A program made the translations under genes and the position numbers. From Desulfovibrio sp. A2 (GTDB lineage: Bacteria > Desulfobacterota > Desulfovibrionia > Desulfovibrionales > Desulfovibrionaceae), in assembly GCF_000226255.1 (NCBI RefSeq), contig NZ_AGFG01000015.1, positions 1 through 54,844 on the forward strand: DNA of 54,844 nt, written 5' to 3'. Shown one piece after another: positions 7,693 to 16,934 of this stretch (within the stretch, counting starts at the first letter, position 1; every line of letters starts with the position of its first letter). The notes beneath the pieces are model-generated. The model was not told the origin of the DNA. It did no database searches and worked only from the letters and a program-made list of their open reading frames with translations.

Positions 7693-9435
7693 CTACTTGG
7701 GGAAGTGCCGCTTGTCCAGATGGTCGTACTTGGGCAGATGCCGCGTGGGCAGCGCCAGGGCGTCGCGCCGGAACGGCGGGGCCAGGCGCGTGCCGTCGGT
7801 CATGATTTCGATGACCGAGGGCTTGCGGCTCTTGCGGGCGGCGTCCAGGGCGTCGGCCAGGTCGGCCTGGGTGTTCACCTTGTAGCCCACCGCGCCCATG
7901 GCCTCCGCGATGGCCGCGTAAGAGTTGGACCAGATGTCCGCGCCCACGAAGCGGTTGTTGTAGAAGTCCACCTGGTTCTTCTTTTCCGCGCACCATGCCC
8001 CGTTGTTGTACACGGTGGCGATGACCGGCAGGTTGTACTGCACGGCGGTGGGCACCTCGAACAGGCTCATGCCCCACGCGCCGTCACCCACGATGGCCAC
8101 CACGGCGTCCTCGGGGCAGGCCAGCTGCGCGCCCAGGCCCGCCTGATAGGCGAACCCGGTGTTGCCGAAGGTCAACGTGGCCACCGAACGCTTGGCGTTG
8201 CGGAAGCGCAGGTAGCTGTTGGCCGTGGAAGAGGTGTTGCCGATGTCGGTGGTGGCGATGGCGTTGTGCGCGGTGACGAAGCGGCCCACCACCTCCAGCG
8301 CCTTGCGCGGGTGCATGCGGCCTTCCTGCACCGGCTCGTCGGCGATGGCGGCGATTTCCTTGTACCAGTCCTCCAGCTCGGCCTTGACCATGGCGTACAC
8401 GGCATCGTCGCGCTTGGGGTTGGGAATGGCCTCGCGGACGCGGGCCAGCAGTTCCACGGCGGCGTCCTTTGCGTCGGCGCACAGGCCCACGGCCACGGGG
8501 TGGGTCTTCGCGATATGGCGGGGGTTGATGTCGATCTGGACGATCTTCGCGGTCTTGGGGAAGTAGTTGATGTCGTACTGGGGCAGCGTGCCGAAGTAGG
8601 ACAGCCGGGTGCCGATGGCCAGGATGACGTCGGCCTGCTGCAGGATGCGCATGGCCGCCTTGGAACCCATGTACCCGATGGGGCCGGTCCACAGCGGATG
8701 GTCGCAGGGGAAGGCGTCGTTGTGCAGGTAGGTGCAGGCCACGGGGGCGTTGAGGTGCTCGGCCAGGGCCTTCACCGTTTCCAGCGCGCCGGAATCCACC
8801 ACGCCGCGCCCGGAGACGATGACCGGCCGCTTGGCGGCCTTCAGCACTTCCACCGCGTCGCGGAACTGCTCGGGGTTGCCGATGCCGCCGGGGGCCACCC
8901 GGTACTGCGAGGGGGCCAGGATGTCCTCGTCCAGTTCGCCGTAGAAGAAGTCGCGCGGGATATCCACCAGCACCGGTCCGCGTTCGGCGTAGGCGATGCG
9001 GAAGGCAGTGCGCAGTATGTCGGCCGCGCGCTTGGGGTGCGGCACGCGGAGTGACGCCTTCGTGATCGGCTTGAACATGTTCCAAGTGTCACATTCCTGA
9101 AAGCCGTCCCACCCCACCGAAATGCTGCCAGCGCTGGGCGAAATGAGCACCATGGGCGTGTGGGCCATGTTGGCCGTGGCCACGGCCGTGGCGTAGTTGG
9201 TGATGCCAGGCCCGTTCTGGCCGATGCAAACACCTGCCCTTCCAGTCATTCTCGTGAAGGCGTCCTCCATGTGGCCCGCCGTCTGTTCGTGGCGCACCGA
9301 TATGAAATCGATGCCCGCCGCCGGAAACAGGTCCAGCAGGTCCATGAAAGCGGAGCCGAGAATGCCGCTGACATGGGTGACGCCTTCCTGCACCAGCACT
9401 TCCGCCATTGCTTCACTGGGGGTCATCTTGGGCAT
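7693..9435 (-). CDS. xsc: Sulfoacetaldehyde acetyltransferase
   Basis: 580 residues. The thiamine-diphosphate enzyme converts sulfoacetaldehyde and phosphate to acetyl phosphate and sulfite. Fold and length fit the ThDP family: the N-terminal pyrimidine-binding domain has the conserved activating Glu at residue 50 ([14 protein letters not shown]), a central domain follows, and the C-terminal domain carries the GDG...NN cofactor motif (GDGAWGMS at 450, NN at 477-478). The overall sequence reads as Xsc rather than acetolactate synthase. GAGGAGG lies about 8 bases before the ATG. It is transcribed divergently from tpa; promoter boxes lie at 9500-9528. In a sulfite-respiring organism both products are valuable: acetyl phosphate for ATP, sulfite as electron acceptor. 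Confidence 0.93.
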
Positions 9436-9762: not shown

Positions 9763-11142
9763 ATGAGCCCCAGTCTGAAGCAAGACCCAGCGGCATACGC
9801 GGCGGCCGACCTGGCCCACGTGTGGCATCACCTCGTCCAGCACCAGGCCCTCGCCGGAAAAGGCCCCATGATCGTGGTCGAAGGCGAAGGACTGAAGTTG
9901 CGGGACATCAACGGCAGGGAATATCTGGACGCCACCTCGGGCGGCGTGTGGTGCGTGAACGTGGGCTACGGCCGTGAACGCATCGCCCGCGCCGTGTACG
10001 AACAGATGAAGGCCATGCCCTACTATGCGGCCACGGCGGGCAACATCCCCTACATCGAGTTCGCCGAAAAGCTGCTTGCCCACATGCCGGGGCTGACCCG
10101 CGCCTACCTTTCCAACAGCGGGTCCGAGGCCAACGAAAAGGCCTACAAGATGGTGCGCGCGCTGGCGCATCTTTCCGGCAATACCGCCAAGAAGAAGATA
10201 CTGTTCCGCGCCCGCGACTACCACGGCACCACCCTGGGCGCGCTCAGTTCCACCGGCCAGGCCGAACGCAAGGAATGGTTCGGCCCGCTGGTGCCCGGCT
10301 TCGTCGAATTTCCCCACGCCTGCTGCTACCGCTGCGCCTTCGGCAAGAGCTACCCCGGCTGCGACATCGACTGTGCGCGGGCGGTGGAGCGGATCATCGA
10401 GATGGAAGGTCCGGAAACCGTGGGCGGCCTCATCGTCGAGCCCATCACGGCGGGCGGCGGGGTCATCCCGCCGGTGGCGGAATACTACACCGTGCTGGCC
10501 GACATCTGTCGCCGCCACGGCGTGCTGCTGATCATGGACGAAGTGGTCTGCGGCATGGGTCGCACCGGAACCATGTTCGGCTACCAGCACTACGGGGTCA
10601 CCCCCGACATCGTGACCATGGCCAAGGGCGTCGCCAGCGCCTACATGCCCATCTCGGTCACCGCCACCACCGAGGCGGTCTTCAACGCCTTCCTGAACGA
10701 CCCGGCCGACAAGATGGCCTACTTCCGCGACATCAGCACCTACGGCGGGTGCGCCGCCGGGTGCAGCGCCGCACTCGAGAACATGGCCATCATCGAGGAG
10801 GAAAAGCTGCTCGATAACGTGGTGGCCATGGGCGACTACCTGCTGGCGGGCCTGCGGGAACTGGCCGCTCTGCCCTATGTCGGCGACGTGCGCGGCAAGG
10901 GCCTTCTGTGCGGCATCGAACTGGTGCAGGACAAGGCCAGCAAGAAGCCCGTGGCCGAGGGCAAGGTCATCCAGGTGGTGGGCGAAATGGCGGCCAACGG
11001 CGTGCTGGTGGGACGCACCAACCGCAGCCTGCCCGGCTACAACAACATCATCAACATCGCCCCGGCCTACGTGGTCACCAGGGGCGACATCGACGTCATC
11101 CTCCGCACCCTGCGTGCGGCCCTTGAAAAGGTGCTCGGCTGA
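9763..11142 (+). CDS. tpa: Taurine--pyruvate aminotransferase
   Basis: 459 residues, class III PLP aminotransferase. It transfers the amino group of taurine to pyruvate, giving sulfoacetaldehyde and alanine. The start is the ATG at 9763, with AAGGAG seven bases upstream; the frame is open further left but without family similarity. Visible landmarks are [14 protein letters not shown] (residues ~117-130), [32 protein letters not shown]-ring Asp259 in LIMDEVV and the Schiff-base Lys288 in [13 protein letters not shown]. The sequence resembles Bilophila-type Tpa. A Cys-rich patch, [16 protein letters not shown] (~185-200), is conserved in related class III enzymes. First gene of the plus-strand operon, 26 bases before ald, which regenerates its pyruvate. 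Confidence 0.92.
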
Positions 11143-11168: not shown

Positions 11169-12278
11169 ATGCAGGTCGGCGTTCTGAAAGAGATCAAGGT
11201 GCTGGAGAACCGCGTGGCCATGACGCCCGCGGGCGTGGTGGCGCTGCGCGCGCACGGGCACTCGGTGCTGGTGGAAACCGGGGCGGGCGCGGGCGCGGGA
11301 TTCGACGACGCGGAATACGTGGCCGCCGGAGCCGTCATGTCCGACGCGCGGACCATCTTCGCCGAGTGCGGCATGGTCATGCACGTCAAGGAGCCGCAGC
11401 CCTCGGAATACGGCATGCTGCGCAAGGACCAGATACTGTTCACCTACCTGCACCTGGCGGCCGACGAGGAGCAGACCCACGCCCTGACCGCCGCGCGCAA
11501 CGTGAACATCGCCTACGAAACCATCCAGAAGGCGGACGGCTCGCTGCCGCTGCTCACCCCCATGTCCGAGGTGGCGGGGCGCATGGCCATCCAGCAGGCC
11601 GCCAAGTACCTGGAAATACCCACCGGGGGCATGGGCAAGCTGATGGGCGGCGTGCCCGGCGTGGAACCGGCCGTGGTGGTGGTCATCGGCGGGGGCACCG
11701 TGGGCATCAACGCGGCCAAGATGGCCTGCGGGCTTGGCGCCACGGTGTACCTGCTGGACAAGAACCTGGACCGGCTGCGCTACCTCAGCGACGTGATGCC
11801 CCCCAACTGCATCACCATGATGTCCGGCCCCTACGCCATCCGCAAGCTGCTGCCCCAGGCGGACGTGGTCATCGGGGCGGTGCTGGTGCCGGGGGCCAAG
11901 GCCCCACACCTGGTCACCCGCGAAGACCTGAAACTGATGCGCAAGGGCTCCATCCTGGTGGACGTGGCCATCGACCAGGGCGGCTGCTTCGAGACCTCGC
12001 GGCCCACCACCCATGCCGACCCGGTGTACGTGGTGGACGGCGTGAGCCACTACTGCGTGGCCAACATCCCCGGCGCGGTGGCCATGACCTCCACGGCCGC
12101 GCTGACCAACGCAACCCTTCCCTACGCCCTGACCATCGCGGACCTGGGGTGGAAGGAAGCCTGCCGCCGCCACGCGGACATCCGCAAGGGGCTGAACGTG
12201 GTGGACGGCAAGATAACCTACCCGGCCGTGGCCGAGGCCTTCGGGCTGCCGCACGTGCCGGTGGAAGAGGTGCTGTAG
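11169..12278 (+). CDS. ald: Alanine dehydrogenase
   Basis: 369 residues, full length for the family. It oxidises alanine to pyruvate and ammonium with NAD+, recycling the amino acceptor consumed by Tpa and supplying NADH. Sequence evidence: N-terminal [17 protein letters not shown], catalytic Lys74 (MHVKEPQ) and His95 (YLHLAAD), Rossmann GGGTVG at ~174-179, and [19 protein letters not shown] near the C-terminus. AAAGGAG precedes the ATG. The tpa-ald pairing is the standard arrangement in taurine-degrading bacteria. The 178-base gap that follows contains a hairpin but no gene. Confidence 0.95.
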
Positions 12279-12456: not shown

Positions 12457-13212
12457 GTGCAAGACGCCGCCAGACCACGGACCAAGATCGAAGTATGCAA
12501 CCTCACCAAGCGGTTCGGTGAACTGCTGGTTCTCGACGACATCTCCTTCTCGGTGGCGGAGGGCGAATTCGTGGCCATCGTCGGCCCCACGGGCTGCGGC
12601 AAGACCACTTTCCTCAACGCCCTGTCCTGCCTGCTGCCCGCATCGGGCGGCCAGATACTCATCGACGGCACGCCCGCCAACCCCAAGCGCCACAACATCT
12701 CCTACGTCTTCCAGGAACCCACCTGCCTGCCCTGGCGCACCGTGCGCGAAAACGTGGCCTACGGCATGGAGGTCAAGGGTCGCCCGCAGAAGGAGATCGA
12801 CGAGCGGCTCGACCACATCCTGGACCTGGTGGGGCTGACCCAGTGCGCGAACCTGTACCCCAACCAGATATCCGCCAGCATGCAGCAGCGCATCGCGGTC
12901 TCCCGCGCGTTCGCCGTGGACCCGGACCTGCTGCTGATGGACGAGCCGTACGGCCAGCTGGATGTGAAGCTGCGGTTCTACCTGGAGGACGAACTGGTGA
13001 ACCTGTGGCGCAAGCTGCAGAGCACGGTGCTGTTCATCACCCACAATATCGAGGAGGCGGTCTACGTGTCCGAGCGCATCCTCGTGCTGTCCAACAAGCC
13101 CACGCGCATCAAGGCCGAGGTTCGCGTGGACCTGCCCCGCCCGCGCGACTTCATGGACCCGGAATTCGTGCGCATCCGTGAACACGTCACGGACCTCATC
13201 AGATGGTGGTAA
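12457..13212 (+). CDS. Sulfonate ABC importer ATPase 1 (degenerate signature motif)
   Basis: 251 residues from a GTG at 12457, chosen for GGAG seven bases upstream; an in-frame ATG at 12346 has no ribosome site and would add a Pro-rich stretch. TauB/SsuB-type ATPase: Walker A GPTGCGKT (43-50), Q-loop VFQEP (84-88), Walker B LLLMDEP (158-164) and switch His196 (FITHNIEEAV) are intact. The ABC signature, normally LSGGQ/LSGGM, reads ISASMQQR (138-145), losing both glycines. Its partner ATPase at 16185 has the complementary defect, so the pair probably forms one active and one degenerate ATP site. Gene order is ATPase 1, binding protein, permease 1, permease 2, ATPase 2. Confidence 0.88.
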   Translation: MQDAARPRTKIEVCNLTKRFGELLVLDDISFSVAEGEFVAIVGPTGCGKTTFLNALSCLLPASGGQILIDGTPANPKRHNISYVFQEPTCLPWRTVRENVAYGMEVKGRPQKEIDERLDHILDLVGLTQCANLYPNQISASMQQRIAVSRAFAVDPDLLLMDEPYGQLDVKLRFYLEDELVNLWRKLQSTVLFITHNIEEAVYVSERILVLSNKPTRIKAEVRVDLPRPRDFMDPEFVRIREHVTDLIRWW

Positions 13213-13289
13213 CCCCGCAAGGGAACTCGCAATGGCAAGAACATACGCCCCAGACAGTCTACCGTAACCTGCTTCAAGGAGGTCTGACC

Positions 13290-14354
13290 ATGCTCCAGAT
13301 GAAACGTTGGGTTGGATTTGCGGCTGCCGTGATGGCTCTTCTTGCCATGGCGGCAACGGCCCTGGCTGCGGAAGTGAAGGCCCTGGACACCACCTGGCAG
13401 GCCGAACACGAAACCTTCGTGCCCTGGTACGCCAAGCAGAAGGGCTGGGACAAGGCCGCCGGGTTCGACTTCAAGATGCACATGTTCGATTCGGGCATGG
13501 CCCAGATCGAAGCCCTGCCCGCCAAACAGTGGGTCGTGGGCGGCACGGGCGGCGTGCCCATGATGTTCGGCGCGCTGCGCCAGAACGCCTACCTCATCGC
13601 CATCGCCAACGACGAGTCGGTGACCAACGCGGTGCTGGTGCGCCCGGACAGCCCCATCCTGAAGACCAAGGGCTTCAACCCCAAGCACCCCGAGGTGTTC
13701 GGCTCGCCTGAAAGCGTCAAGGGCAAGACCATCCTGGCCACCACCATCTCGTCCGGCCACTACGCCATGAGCCTGTGGCTGAAGGCGCTGGGCCTGACCG
13801 ACAAGGACGTGACCATCAAGAACATGGACCCCGCCCAGTGCGTGGCCGCGTTCGAGAAGGGCATCGGCGACGCGGTCGTGCTGTGGGCCCCGCAGATGTA
13901 CAACGGCCTCAAGAAGGGCTGGAAGGTCGCTTCCGACGTCAAGACGGCGGGCGGCTTCGTGCCCATCGTGCTCATTGGCGACAAGGACTACTGCGACAAG
14001 AACCCCGAGGAAGTCGCGCGCTTCCTGAAGGTGTACTTTCAGGGCATCGACGCCCTGCGTTCCGAAGGCGTGAAGCTGGCCCCGGAATACGCCAAGTTCC
14101 TGAAGTGGGCCGGGCTGAACATGTCCGAGGAAGAAGCGAAGATGGACCTGGAGCTGCACCCGGTGTTCACCCTGCAGGAACAGCTGAAGATGTTCGACGC
14201 CTCGGCCGGCGAAAGCCAGGTGCAGGCATGGCAGAAGGACCTGGTGAAGTTCTTCACCGAACTCGGCAAGCTGAAGCCCGCCGAAGGCGAAAAGCTGCTG
14301 ACCGGCTACTACATCACCGACAAGTTCCTGAAGCTGGTGCCCACCGTCAAGTAG
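13290..14354 (+). CDS. Sulfonate/taurine ABC importer substrate-binding protein
   Basis: 354 residues starting at the ATG at 13290, six bases after AAGGAGGT. A Sec signal peptide covers residues 1-26 (hydrophobic core, cut after ALA), so it is periplasmic. The mature protein fits the nitrate/sulfonate/taurine (SsuA/TauA) binding-protein family: a GGTGGVPMMFGALR loop, PESVKGKTILATTISSGHYA hinge region, and a second lobe with VLWAPQMYNGLKKG. The taurine assignment comes from its place between tpa-ald and the permease genes; the ligand could equally be another small sulfonate or 2-aminoethylphosphonate. The strongest ribosome site in the operon fits the usual excess of binding protein over membrane parts. 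Confidence 0.85.
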   Translation: MLQMKRWVGFAAAVMALLAMAATALAAEVKALDTTWQAEHETFVPWYAKQKGWDKAAGFDFKMHMFDSGMAQIEALPAKQWVVGGTGGVPMMFGALRQNAYLIAIANDESVTNAVLVRPDSPILKTKGFNPKHPEVFGSPESVKGKTILATTISSGHYAMSLWLKALGLTDKDVTIKNMDPAQCVAAFEKGIGDAVVLWAPQMYNGLKKGWKVASDVKTAGGFVPIVLIGDKDYCDKNPEEVARFLKVYFQGIDALRSEGVKLAPEYAKFLKWAGLNMSEEEAKMDLELHPVFTLQEQLKMFDASAGESQVQAWQKDLVKFFTELGKLKPAEGEKLLTGYYITDKFLKLVPTVK

Positions 14355-14423
14355 CGCTTACGCGCAGCGCCCGCCCCGCCCGGGGCGGGCGCCCCTTCCC
14401 ACCCGCCGACACCGGAGGCCCGC

Positions 14424-15221
14424 ATGACCGCGTATCGCGAGGTAGTCGTAAGAACACCGCTGGCGCTGAAGATACTGCCCATTCTCAGCGTGGCCACGTT
14501 CTTCATCGCATGGGAGATCGTCGTGCGCACCGGGGTCGTGCCGGACACCATGCTGGCCGCGCCCACAACCGTGACGCAGCTTCTGTTCGACAAGTTCACC
14601 AACATCGACCCCGACGGCGCGCTGCTGTACGAGCACGCCTGGGTAAGCATCCAGGAAGCCTTCTGCGGCTATTTCCTGGCGCTGGCCGTGGGCCTGCCGC
14701 TGGGCCTGGCCATGGGCTGGTTCAACGTGGCCGAGGGGCTGGCCCGGCCCATCTTCGAGATCATCCGGCCCATCCCCCCGGTGGCGTGGATACCCCTGAC
14801 CATCTTCTGGTTCGGCATCGGGCTGCCCGGCAAGATATTCATCATCTGGCTGGGGGGGCTGGTGCCCTGCGTCATCAACGCCTACGTGGGCGTCAAGATG
14901 ACCAACCCCACGCTCATCCAGATGGCCCGCACCTACGGGGCCAGCGACTGGCAGATTTTCAAGCAGCTGTGCATCCCCTCGGCCCTGCCCATGGTCTTCG
15001 GCGCGCTCCAGATCGCGCTGGCCTGCTGCTGGACCAACCTGGTGGCGGCAGAACTGCTGGCAGCCGACGCGGGCCTGGGGTTCATGATCACCATGGGCCG
15101 CCGCCTGGCCATGCCCGAAATGGTGGTGCTGGGCATGTTCATGGTGGGCCTGACCGGCGCGTTCATCGGCGTGATCATCGACAGGGTGGAAAAGCGGCTG
15201 CTGGCCGGAATCAGGAGGTAG
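14424..15221 (+). CDS. Sulfonate ABC importer permease 1
   Basis: 265 residues with about six hydrophobic helices, BPD_transp_1 (TauC/SsuC) type. The ATPase-contact EAA loop is visible as GASDWQIFKQLCIPSALPMV. CGGAGG precedes the ATG. The stop is followed after three bases by the next permease start, so the two are translationally coupled. Sulfonate importers normally use one permease gene as a homodimer; two adjacent, clearly different ones imply a heterodimeric channel matching the two different ATPases. Confidence 0.88.
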   Translation: MTAYREVVVRTPLALKILPILSVATFFIAWEIVVRTGVVPDTMLAAPTTVTQLLFDKFTNIDPDGALLYEHAWVSIQEAFCGYFLALAVGLPLGLAMGWFNVAEGLARPIFEIIRPIPPVAWIPLTIFWFGIGLPGKIFIIWLGGLVPCVINAYVGVKMTNPTLIQMARTYGASDWQIFKQLCIPSALPMVFGALQIALACCWTNLVAAELLAADAGLGFMITMGRRLAMPEMVVLGMFMVGLTGAFIGVIIDRVEKRLLAGIRR

Positions 15222-15224
15222 ACC

Positions 15225-16103
15225 ATGTCGCAGGAAGCCACGTGCACCGCCGCAAGCTCTTCCATCGCCAACGAAACCGTGGGCCAGGTGGTGGACCACG
15301 GCCCCCTCAGCCTCGTCCGCATCCTCACCAACCGCTGGTTCCTGCACACCGTGTCCATCGTGGCGTTCTTCTGGACGTGGGACTGGCTGGCCGGTTCCAA
15401 CGTGCTGGGCGGCGGCAGCAGCGCCCTTGCCCGCCCGCACGAGGTGCTGGAACAGCTGGTGGTGCTTGCCCGCGAGGAACTGGCGGAACTGACCCTGTGG
15501 GGCCATGTGTGGGCCAGCACCCGGCGCGTGGTGACGGGCTTTTCCATCGCCGCCGCCATCGCCGTGCCGCTGGGCCTGTTCATGGCCCTGAACCGCTATG
15601 TCAACGCCATCGTCAAGCCCCTGTTCGACCTGCTGAAGCCCATGCCCCCCATTTCGTGGATATCCATCTCCATCCTGTGGTTCGGCATCGGCGAGACGTC
15701 CAAGGTGTTCATCATCGTGCTGGGCACCTTCGTGCCCTGCCTGCTCAACGCCTACAACGGCGTGCGCCTGGTGGAGCCGGAATTGTACGACGTGGTGCGC
15801 ATGCTGGGCGGCAAGCGGCGCGACGAAATCCTGCACGTCTGTTTTCCCGCCTCGTTCCCGGCCATCTTCGCGGGCTTGCAGATATCGCTCAGCATCGCCT
15901 GGACCTGCGTGCTGGCGGCGGAACTGGTCAGCGCCCGCTCGGGCCTGGGGTACATCATCGTGCAAGGCATGAACCTGTCGCAACCGGCCATGGTCATCGG
16001 CGGCATGGCGGTCATCGCGGCGGCGGCGTGGGGCACCACGCTGCTGGTCACCGCGCTGGAACGCAAGCTGTGCCCGTGGAAGCGCAAGATCGCCGGGCTG
16101 TAG
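15225..16103 (+). CDS. Sulfonate ABC importer permease 2
   Basis: 292 residues, second TauC/SsuC-type permease, with a longer N-terminal cytoplasmic segment (~45 residues) before the first helix. The EAA loop reads GGKRRDEILHVCFPASFPAI. AGGAGG spans the end of permease 1 just before its ATG. It differs from permease 1 through most of its length, so it is not a recent tandem copy. The 81-base gap to ATPase 2 shows no gene. Confidence 0.88.
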   Translation: MSQEATCTAASSSIANETVGQVVDHGPLSLVRILTNRWFLHTVSIVAFFWTWDWLAGSNVLGGGSSALARPHEVLEQLVVLAREELAELTLWGHVWASTRRVVTGFSIAAAIAVPLGLFMALNRYVNAIVKPLFDLLKPMPPISWISISILWFGIGETSKVFIIVLGTFVPCLLNAYNGVRLVEPELYDVVRMLGGKRRDEILHVCFPASFPAIFAGLQISLSIAWTCVLAAELVSARSGLGYIIVQGMNLSQPAMVIGGMAVIAAAAWGTTLLVTALERKLCPWKRKIAGL

Positions 16104-16184
16104 CCCGTCCCGGCTCACTCGGACAGCCCCTGCCTACTCCCGCAGCCCGCAGCAATCGCACACCCGAAAGGAAGGGACGACGCC

Positions 16185-16934
16185 GTGATCGAATGCCGCA
16201 ACGTGAGCAAGACCTTCATCCAGAAGGGCAGTCAGGAAGTGCCGGTGCTCGATGACGTGAGCATCGACGTGCAGGCCAACGAATTCGTGGTCATCCTGGG
16301 CCCCGGCCAGAGCGGCAAGAGCACGCTGCTGCGCATCATCGCCGGGCTGGAAACGCCCACCACCGGTTCCGTGATCCTGGACGGGGAGCCGGTGACCGGG
16401 CCGGGGGCCGACCGTGGACTGGTGTTCCAGGGGTACATGCTCTTTCCGTGGAAGACCGTGCTCGGCAACGTGGAAATGGGGCCGAAACTGTGCGGCCTGC
16501 CCAAGGACGAGTGCCGCGACATCGCCATGCACTACATCGACCTGGTGGGGTTGAAAGGCTTCGAGAAGCACTACCCGCACCAGCTTTCCGGCGGCATGAA
16601 GCAGCGCGTGGGCATTGCCCGCGCCTACGCCAACAAGCCCCGGGTGATGCTGCTGGACGAGCCCTTCGGCCAGTTGGACGCCCAGACGCGCATCTTCATG
16701 GAGCAGGAAACCGAGCGTATATGGCAGACCGACAGGCGCACCGTCATCTTCGTCACCAACAACACCGACGAGGCGCTGTTCCTGGCCGACCGGATCGTCA
16801 CCATCGAGGGCAAGCTGCCCGGCCGGGTGCAGCGCACCTACACCGTGGACCTGCCCCGCCCGCGCGACCTGACGGGCAAACGCTTTCTGGAGATGCGCCG
16901 CGAGATCATCGACGCCTCGGTGCTCACCCTGTAG
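16185..16934 (+). CDS. Sulfonate ABC importer ATPase 2 (H-loop His replaced by Asn)
   Basis: 249 residues from a GTG at 16185, with GGAAGG upstream. Walker A is GPGQSGKST (39-47), signature LSGGMKQR (134-141) is canonical, and Walker B is VMLLDEP (154-160) with the catalytic Glu. The switch histidine that normally follows (VTHD) is replaced: the sequence is FVTNNTDEAL, with Asn192 at the His position. In the expected head-to-tail dimer this altered site faces the degenerate signature of ATPase 1, while the intact site of ATPase 1 faces this intact signature. Last gene of the operon; a strong terminator follows. Confidence 0.88.
   Translation: MIECRNVSKTFIQKGSQEVPVLDDVSIDVQANEFVVILGPGQSGKSTLLRIIAGLETPTTGSVILDGEPVTGPGADRGLVFQGYMLFPWKTVLGNVEMGPKLCGLPKDECRDIAMHYIDLVGLKGFEKHYPHQLSGGMKQRVGIARAYANKPRVMLLDEPFGQLDAQTRIFMEQETERIWQTDRRTVIFVTNNTDEALFLADRIVTIEGKLPGRVQRTYTVDLPRPRDLTGKRFLEMRREIIDASVLTL

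Follow-up and report, generated by a model that had tools for sequence, protein, structure and literature searches.

An importer with two different ATPases whose motif changes fall on one predicted composite ATP site

The importer operon and its two ATPases

The window analysed here is a stretch of 54,844 nucleotides of Desulfovibrio sp. A2 (NZ_AGFG01000015.1, contig C69 of a 4.15 Mb genome); it carries the genes of an ATP-binding cassette (ABC) importer that has two different ATP-binding subunits, B1 and B2. The nearest named relatives in similarity scans with B1 are Nitratidesulfovibrio. The operon lies on the + strand in the order aminotransferase, alanine dehydrogenase, B1, binding protein, permease, permease, B2, and an MgtE gene follows it on the - strand (Table 1). 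The gene set confirms the original prediction of an importer with two permeases and two ATPases in place of one of each. At 251 residues, B1 matches its nearest relatives in length. The start of the binding protein was set at a signal-peptide-like Met after AAGGAGG within a frame open from 13203; the window holds one binding protein gene.

An NMT1/SsuA binding protein, BPD_transp_1 permeases and ABC_tran ATPases in one operon place the system in the NitT/TauT type. When the ATPases were ranked against the PDB, they came out closer to the NrtCD/CmpCD/TauB/SsuB group than to other importer families; CmpD is the best match of both B1 and B2, and NrtD, CmpC and NrtC follow closely. For B1, sugar ATPases stand third and fourth in this ranking, and the trees described below hold NitT/TauT-type rows only, so that they are no test of this affinity.

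B1 combines intact Walker motifs and a switch His with a broken signature, just as had been predicted. For B2, the intact signature and the Asn at the switch were also read correctly in that prediction, which missed a further change: in the B2 Walker A motif, Gln replaces the second glycine of GxxGxGKS. The catalytic Glu and the Walker A Lys are retained in both subunits. ATP sites in ABC dimers are composite (described in excerpts of PMC7756269), and in head-to-tail geometry site I would pair the Walker half and switch His of B1 with the LSGGM of B2, a consensus combination, and site II would pair the GPGQSGKS/Asn half of B2 with the ISASM of B1, a combination altered in three motifs. The changes of both subunits, the newly noted one included, fall on a single composite site and the other site is consensus, which by sequence is the one-consensus, one-degenerate class. 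The earlier interpretation of one consensus and one altered site is supported; site II may also be degenerate in function.

Matching at a single locus had been taken to argue against random decay, and in that form the argument is weak, because three changes would fall on one of two sites by luck in 1 of 4 cases. We dropped chance matching as the main argument for this reason, and the case is carried by conservation among relatives.

Table 1 Features of the importer operon and its neighbours in the window.
Feature	Position	Strand	Basis or remark
B1, ATP-binding subunit	12457-13212	+	PF00005; GTG start, 251 aa
B1 Walker A, GPTGCGKT	12583-12606	+	translation read
B1 signature, ISASM, altered	12868-12882	+	translation read
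B1 Walker B, LLLMDE, intact	12928-12945	+	translation read
B1 switch, ITHN, His present	13036-13047	+	translation read
Periplasmic substrate-binding protein, NMT1/SsuA type	about 13290-14354	+	domain/profile searches
First permease, BPD_transp_1	14424-15221	+	domain search
Second permease, BPD_transp_1	15225-16103	+	domain search
B2, ATP-binding subunit	16185-16934	+	domain search; GTG start
B2 Walker A, GPGQSGKS	16299-16322	+	translation read
B2 signature, LSGGM, intact	16584-16598	+	translation read
B2 Walker B, VMLLDE	16644-16661	+	translation read
B2 switch, VTNN, His to Asn	16752-16763	+	translation read
Aminotransferase class III, probably taurine-pyruvate aminotransferase (Tpa)	9763-11142	+	name read from context
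Alanine dehydrogenase (Ald)	11169-12278	+	TIGR00518 over cut-off
Sulfoacetaldehyde acetyltransferase (Xsc), divergent, upstream	7693-9435	-	TIGR03457, NF005713 over cut-off

Conservation and co-occurrence of the two subunits

Scanning GTDB species genomes with B1 as the query returned at least 572 stretches encoding some relative, from which the best 80 loci, sorted by identity and not by motif, were taken. All 80 encode a B1 with an altered signature and a switch His; the signature is VSASM in 44, ISASM in 15, ISSSM in eight and another form in 13, and its second Gly is present in none. A B2 gene was found in 70 of the loci, with LSGGM in every case and with Asn at the switch in 67, Ser in two (L060, L069) and one cut, unreadable switch (L053). 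The ten loci that lack B2 stop partway through the operon, in the binding protein or the permeases, no more than 2593 bases after B1, and the six further ATPases in the 80 loci are unrelated (at most 34% identity). The two genes lie on one strand in all 70 pairs, in the order B1..B2 in 58 and as adjacent B2-B1 in 12. By NCBI label, 43 of these loci belong to Thermodesulfobacteriota, 20 to Bacillota, three to Myxococcota and one each to Pseudomonadota, Actinomycetota and Hydrogenedentota, with one unlabelled; many are metagenome bins, and the phyla with a single member may be mis-binned. The original prediction named normal motifs in both ATPases of the same gene pair as evidence against it; none of the 70 two-gene loci shows them, and the altered B1 recurs with an Asn-bearing B2 in the paired genes of other genomes.

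The same pattern holds in a set of distinct rows (98 of B1 and 83 of B2, from L001-L081, L166-L237 and the window). In B1, signature positions 2 and 4 are Ser and the switch is His in 98/98, and position 3 is Ala in 75, Ser in 12, Val in ten and Thr in one. In B2, LSGGM is found in 83/83, Walker A position 4 is Gln in 72, Arg in seven, Leu in one and Asn in one (81 readable), and the switch is Asn in 80 and Ser in two (82 readable). The catalytic Glu is retained in 98/98 B1 rows and in all 82 readable B2 rows. Similarity searches, which listed the top 120 of about 8000 scored sequences for each subunit, gave [VI]S[AS]SM with His in 114/114 of the listed B1 relatives counted (six open reading frames (ORFs) of more than 400 residues were left out) and LSGGM with Asn in 120/120 of the listed B2 relatives (116 TNN, three TNS, and P0133 read separately). 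The altered B1 signature is thus constrained in its own right, with Ser at position 4 in every distinct row and the Glu kept, which argues against decay; being nearly fixed to its own consensus, the altered site would seem to have a job.

Six long ORFs (P0014-P0018 and P0069; 448-504 residues, several from metagenome sources) fuse B2 to B1; wherever the pattern search picked out motifs in them, they were those expected of the half concerned. P0043 is a partial B1-B2 join. The fused ORFs count for little, being small in number; on inspection by eye some resemble deletion or frame joins, and some may be assembly joins. An alignment mixing fused and single ATPases was discarded, as its B2 rows fell on the wrong half.

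For control ATPases outside the clade, the best match was taken from each of 20 genomes in the phylum (L218-L237); 20/20 combine [LI]SGGM with a canonical Walker A and His at the switch. Reading of the window's own genome covered 78 domain rows in 55 stretches, half domains among them; most of the other ATPases in these rows show a canonical signature together with a switch His, and the exceptions include two pairs on contigs C41 and C15, Liv-like pairs and some halves of two-domain proteins. Among 149 genomes drawn from the family, B1 was found in 27 (E <= 1e-80) and B2 in 28 (E <= 1e-78), with all 27 shared. At the level of matches there were 38 for B1 and 36 for B2, and three B1 matches had no B2 match: the end of the contig truncates the B2 partner (LSGGM, TNN) in G062:C23, and G012:C68 and G032:C66 carry pairs of the D-type described below, whose SGGM/TNN partners score below the B2 cut-off.

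In a tree of 20 B1 and 22 B2 rows chosen from the loci, B1 forms one clade (100/100) and so does B2 (100/99), and both persist when the tree is built without the four motif regions and without TauB and SsuB (100/100 and 98/98). A joint clade of B1 and B2 has support of 95/83, or 88/88 with the motif columns removed. The two permeases likewise form two clades in a quick-method tree of 36 rows, comprising the window and 35 of the 37 loci picked from the set of 80, with a Shimodaira-Hasegawa-like approximate likelihood ratio (SH-aLRT) of 100. Because B1, B2 and the two permeases each form a clade, the four subunits have been passed on as a set of distinct partners, which is what an obligate hetero-complex would lead one to expect.

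Probable substrate and proposed division of labour between the sites

A Tpa-kind aminotransferase, Ald and Xsc together make up a route from taurine to sulfite. Because genes for the Tpa-like enzyme, Ald and Xsc adjoin the importer, taurine is the likeliest substrate. Across the 80 loci, 42 have at least one gene that clusters with Tpa, Ald, Xsc or an Fe-alcohol dehydrogenase; the representative of the last scores 254 bits with SarD, below the cut-off of 700. The importer proteins themselves fall below the NCBIfam equivalog cut-offs for TauABC (ATPases 180.9 and 219.9 of 357 bits, permeases 137.5 and 154.7 of 342, binding protein 71.9 of 304.25). Taurine is probably not the only substrate across the B1/B2 clade, because Lachnospiraceae-type loci L071-L077 carry short-chain dehydrogenase/reductase (SDR) and aldolase genes instead of taurine-route genes; their substrate may be a sulfosugar or other sugar-like compound. 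By eye, several of these loci have a second aldolase, a phosphofructokinase-like gene and a TIM-like gene to the right of B1.

We favour, with a probability of about 70%, the reading that the five genes encode a single NitT/TauT importer, likely for taurine, which would act as an obligate hetero-complex built on a B1-B2 dimer with one hydrolysing and one ATP-holding site. Two different permeases and the ATPase dimer would form the binding-protein-dependent importer. Site I, complete in its B1 Walker motifs and switch His and in the LSGGM of B2, would hydrolyse ATP; site II, made of GPGQSGKS/Asn of B2 and xS-x-S-M of B1, would bind ATP and hold the dimer together or partly closed, and would hydrolyse slowly or never. 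One ATP per cycle would then reset the importer. This job for site II is our best reading and is modelled on heterodimeric exporters, in which one hydrolysis resets the pump (as described in excerpts of PMC7756565). We infer as a benefit a cost of one ATP per taurine.

Several points weigh against this reading. The remaining 38 of the 80 loci have none of the four taurine-route clusters, some of them because the contig is short. The distinct rows were sorted by B1 Walker A and B2 switch, so that the counts for those two motifs are partly circular; the identity-sorted 80 loci and the similarity searches are free of this. One of the 28 family genomes with B2 (G112) has the permeases and B2 without B1 before the contig end; the contig departs inside the binding protein, whose start is lost, through an assembly break or real loss. 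The distances of B1 and B2 are correlated (r = 0.918 over 76 pairs, with 0/2000 permutations as high), which is expected from shared operon descent, and this correlation was dropped as evidence of contact since genes of one operon share descent. An AlphaFold run of the natural B2-B1 fusion P0015 from a six-row alignment gave good domains in an uncertain arrangement (mean predicted local distance difference test score 83.6, predicted template modelling score 0.51). Lastly, according to the review PMC7756269, ABCC1 with Asn (or Gln) at its site 2 switch transports much as the wild type does, and site II may for that reason still hydrolyse.

The ABCC1 H-loop result, a His-to-Asn change in site 2, also favours the chief rival, in which the heterodimer is real, both of its sites hydrolyse, and Asn, GPGQ and SASM are simply tolerated and mean nothing for the mechanism; so do the catalytic Glu and Walker A Lys that both subunits keep. 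We consider this unlikely, given that site II is altered in three motifs when the catalytic residues of the other site are invariant in the rows read, that B1 lacks the second signature Gly in 98/98 distinct rows, and that an altered signature is common to all human degenerate sites (excerpts of PMC7756269).

That one operon serves two separate importers, each with a homodimeric ATPase, would account for the presence of two permeases and two ATPases, and an operon with a single permease gene and two ATPases does exist (L240). It is nonetheless highly improbable: either homodimer would carry two altered sites, B1 and B2 occur together in 70/70 loci that reach far enough and on one strand, the two permeases are separately conserved beside a single binding protein gene in the window, and in the PDB entries of the closest relatives with solved structures two different ATPase chains occur together. 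Separate homodimers, which the original prediction had named as evidence that would count against it, are disfavoured by this co-occurrence, linkage and separate conservation. Decay of a duplicated ATPase, to which the variation at B1 signature position 3 might point, is scarcely credible given open frames and conserved motifs across several phyla and the near fixation of Ser at B1 signature position 4 and Asn at the B2 switch.

Related pairs and comparison with known ABC systems

Other matched pairs occur in the same genome and beyond. A second B1/B2 pair on contig C41 (L001 823-11043) reads LSASM/TH and LSGGM/TNN and adjoins SDR, 3-hydroxyisobutyrate-dehydrogenase-like, aldehyde dehydrogenase and sigma-54 regulator genes; it is perhaps a C3-sulfonate importer. 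The pair on C15 (L195 3608-8714; G000:C15 about 101600-106700), with an amidohydrolase gene nearby, is matched as well, with ISSGM/TH and LSGGM/TSE, Ser standing at the switch. The C15-type rows group on a single branch apart from B1/B2 (Ca+Cb 100/98; these are flagged as long), and the C15-type motifs are kept in Cb in 11/11 genomes (L198-L208) and in Ca in all eight loci whose flank reaches it (L201-L208).

A milder, still matched D-type pair was found in four genomes (L240, L244, L270, L271), combining LSAGM or ISAGM and TH with ISGGM or LSGGM and TNN. Its Walker A is canonical in both subunits except for the Asn subunit of L270 (GPTSCGKT), and Asn is present in 120/120 of the relatives listed for the L240 Asn subunit. 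L240 (1835-6760) has one permease gene, so asymmetric ATPases may precede the permease duplication; by eye, its neighbour is nitrilase-like. In a tree with 15 DN rows (13 of them every ninth of P0252-P0360) and two DH rows, from which C15-type rows, TauB and SsuB were left out, canonical rows (100/97) are followed by B2, then DN (94/72), then DH with B1 (100/98). Because DN and DH fall on the B1 side, the switch Asn may have been present before the split and then lost in the B1 line, may have arisen twice, or may have moved by gene conversion.

Three grades can be distinguished: SAG with Asn in the D-type, SSG with Ser in the C15-type, and SxS with Asn and GPGQ in the B-type, whose altered-site consensus is GPG[QR][SC]GK, an Asn switch and xS-x-S-M. 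That NitT/TauT importers have more than once evolved a one-site ATP engine, with a hydrolysing site and a conserved ATP-holding site of its own consensus, is a tentative proposal. The ATP cost of each imported molecule is an old question, studied mainly with identical ATPase subunits, whose sites are indistinguishable. In B1/B2 each subunit carries the catalytic half of one site, so single mutants would report on single sites; because relatives in several bacterial groups share its lopsided design, the importer is a good test of a nutrient importer running on one ATP-burning site instead of two. If the proposal is true, one ATP and not two would be spent per sulfonate imported, valuable to anaerobes on small energy yields, and the family would tie the question of ATP cost to the energy economy of sulfonate-respiring bacteria. 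The D-, C15- and B-type series with its canonical neighbours makes a natural evolutionary experiment.

Among known importers of this family, cyanobacterial NrtC/NrtD and CmpC/CmpD likewise place two different ATPases in one importer, according to their PDB entries. The three chains compared, CmpC, CmpD and NrtD, have [IL]SGGM and a switch His, so that both sites look canonical, unlike those of B1/B2, and the CmpC and NrtC chains are much longer (665-690 residues). E. coli TauABC and SsuABC share family and substrate class with the window importer. Each has a single ATPase gene and hence identical sites, and in our alignment check TauB and SsuB proved canonical (LSGGQ and TH), unlike B1/B2.

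The original prediction knew of no asymmetric pair among sulfonate or taurine importers, and we found none for NitT/TauT or sulfonate importers in the portion of the open-licence PMC literature covered, with print elsewhere possible. The asymmetry is not unique among importers, however, for E. coli LivG (LAYGD and His) and LivF (MSGGE and a switch Gln) have the same matched pattern as B1/B2; they differ in low identity (22-29%), in Gln in place of Asn and in a canonical Walker A. Five Liv-like pairs in the window's genome (L130, L139, L144, L145, L149), named by likeness to the E. coli motifs, show the same matching; in these and in L238 (725-2207) LivG has an altered signature and His, and LivF has SGGE and Gln. 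LivG/LivF is a very common importer family, and its matched asymmetry lies far from B1/B2 within the ABC family. Mycobacterial OppABCD has one degenerate site.

A further parallel lies in exporters with a degenerate site, among which excerpts of PMC7756269 and PMC7756565 name TAP, TM287/288, TmrAB, the ABCC family and Pdr5. As in the window system, one of their composite sites is consensus and the other altered, and the changes are distributed between the two halves; they differ in being exporters, whereas the window system is an importer. Among human degenerate sites, the second commonest change affects the Walker B Glu (excerpts of PMC7756269), a residue that B1 and B2 both keep. The general idea is thus known from exporters and readable from LivGF, and what appears new is that a matched asymmetry is conserved among NitT/TauT importers, in what seem to be at least two lineages.

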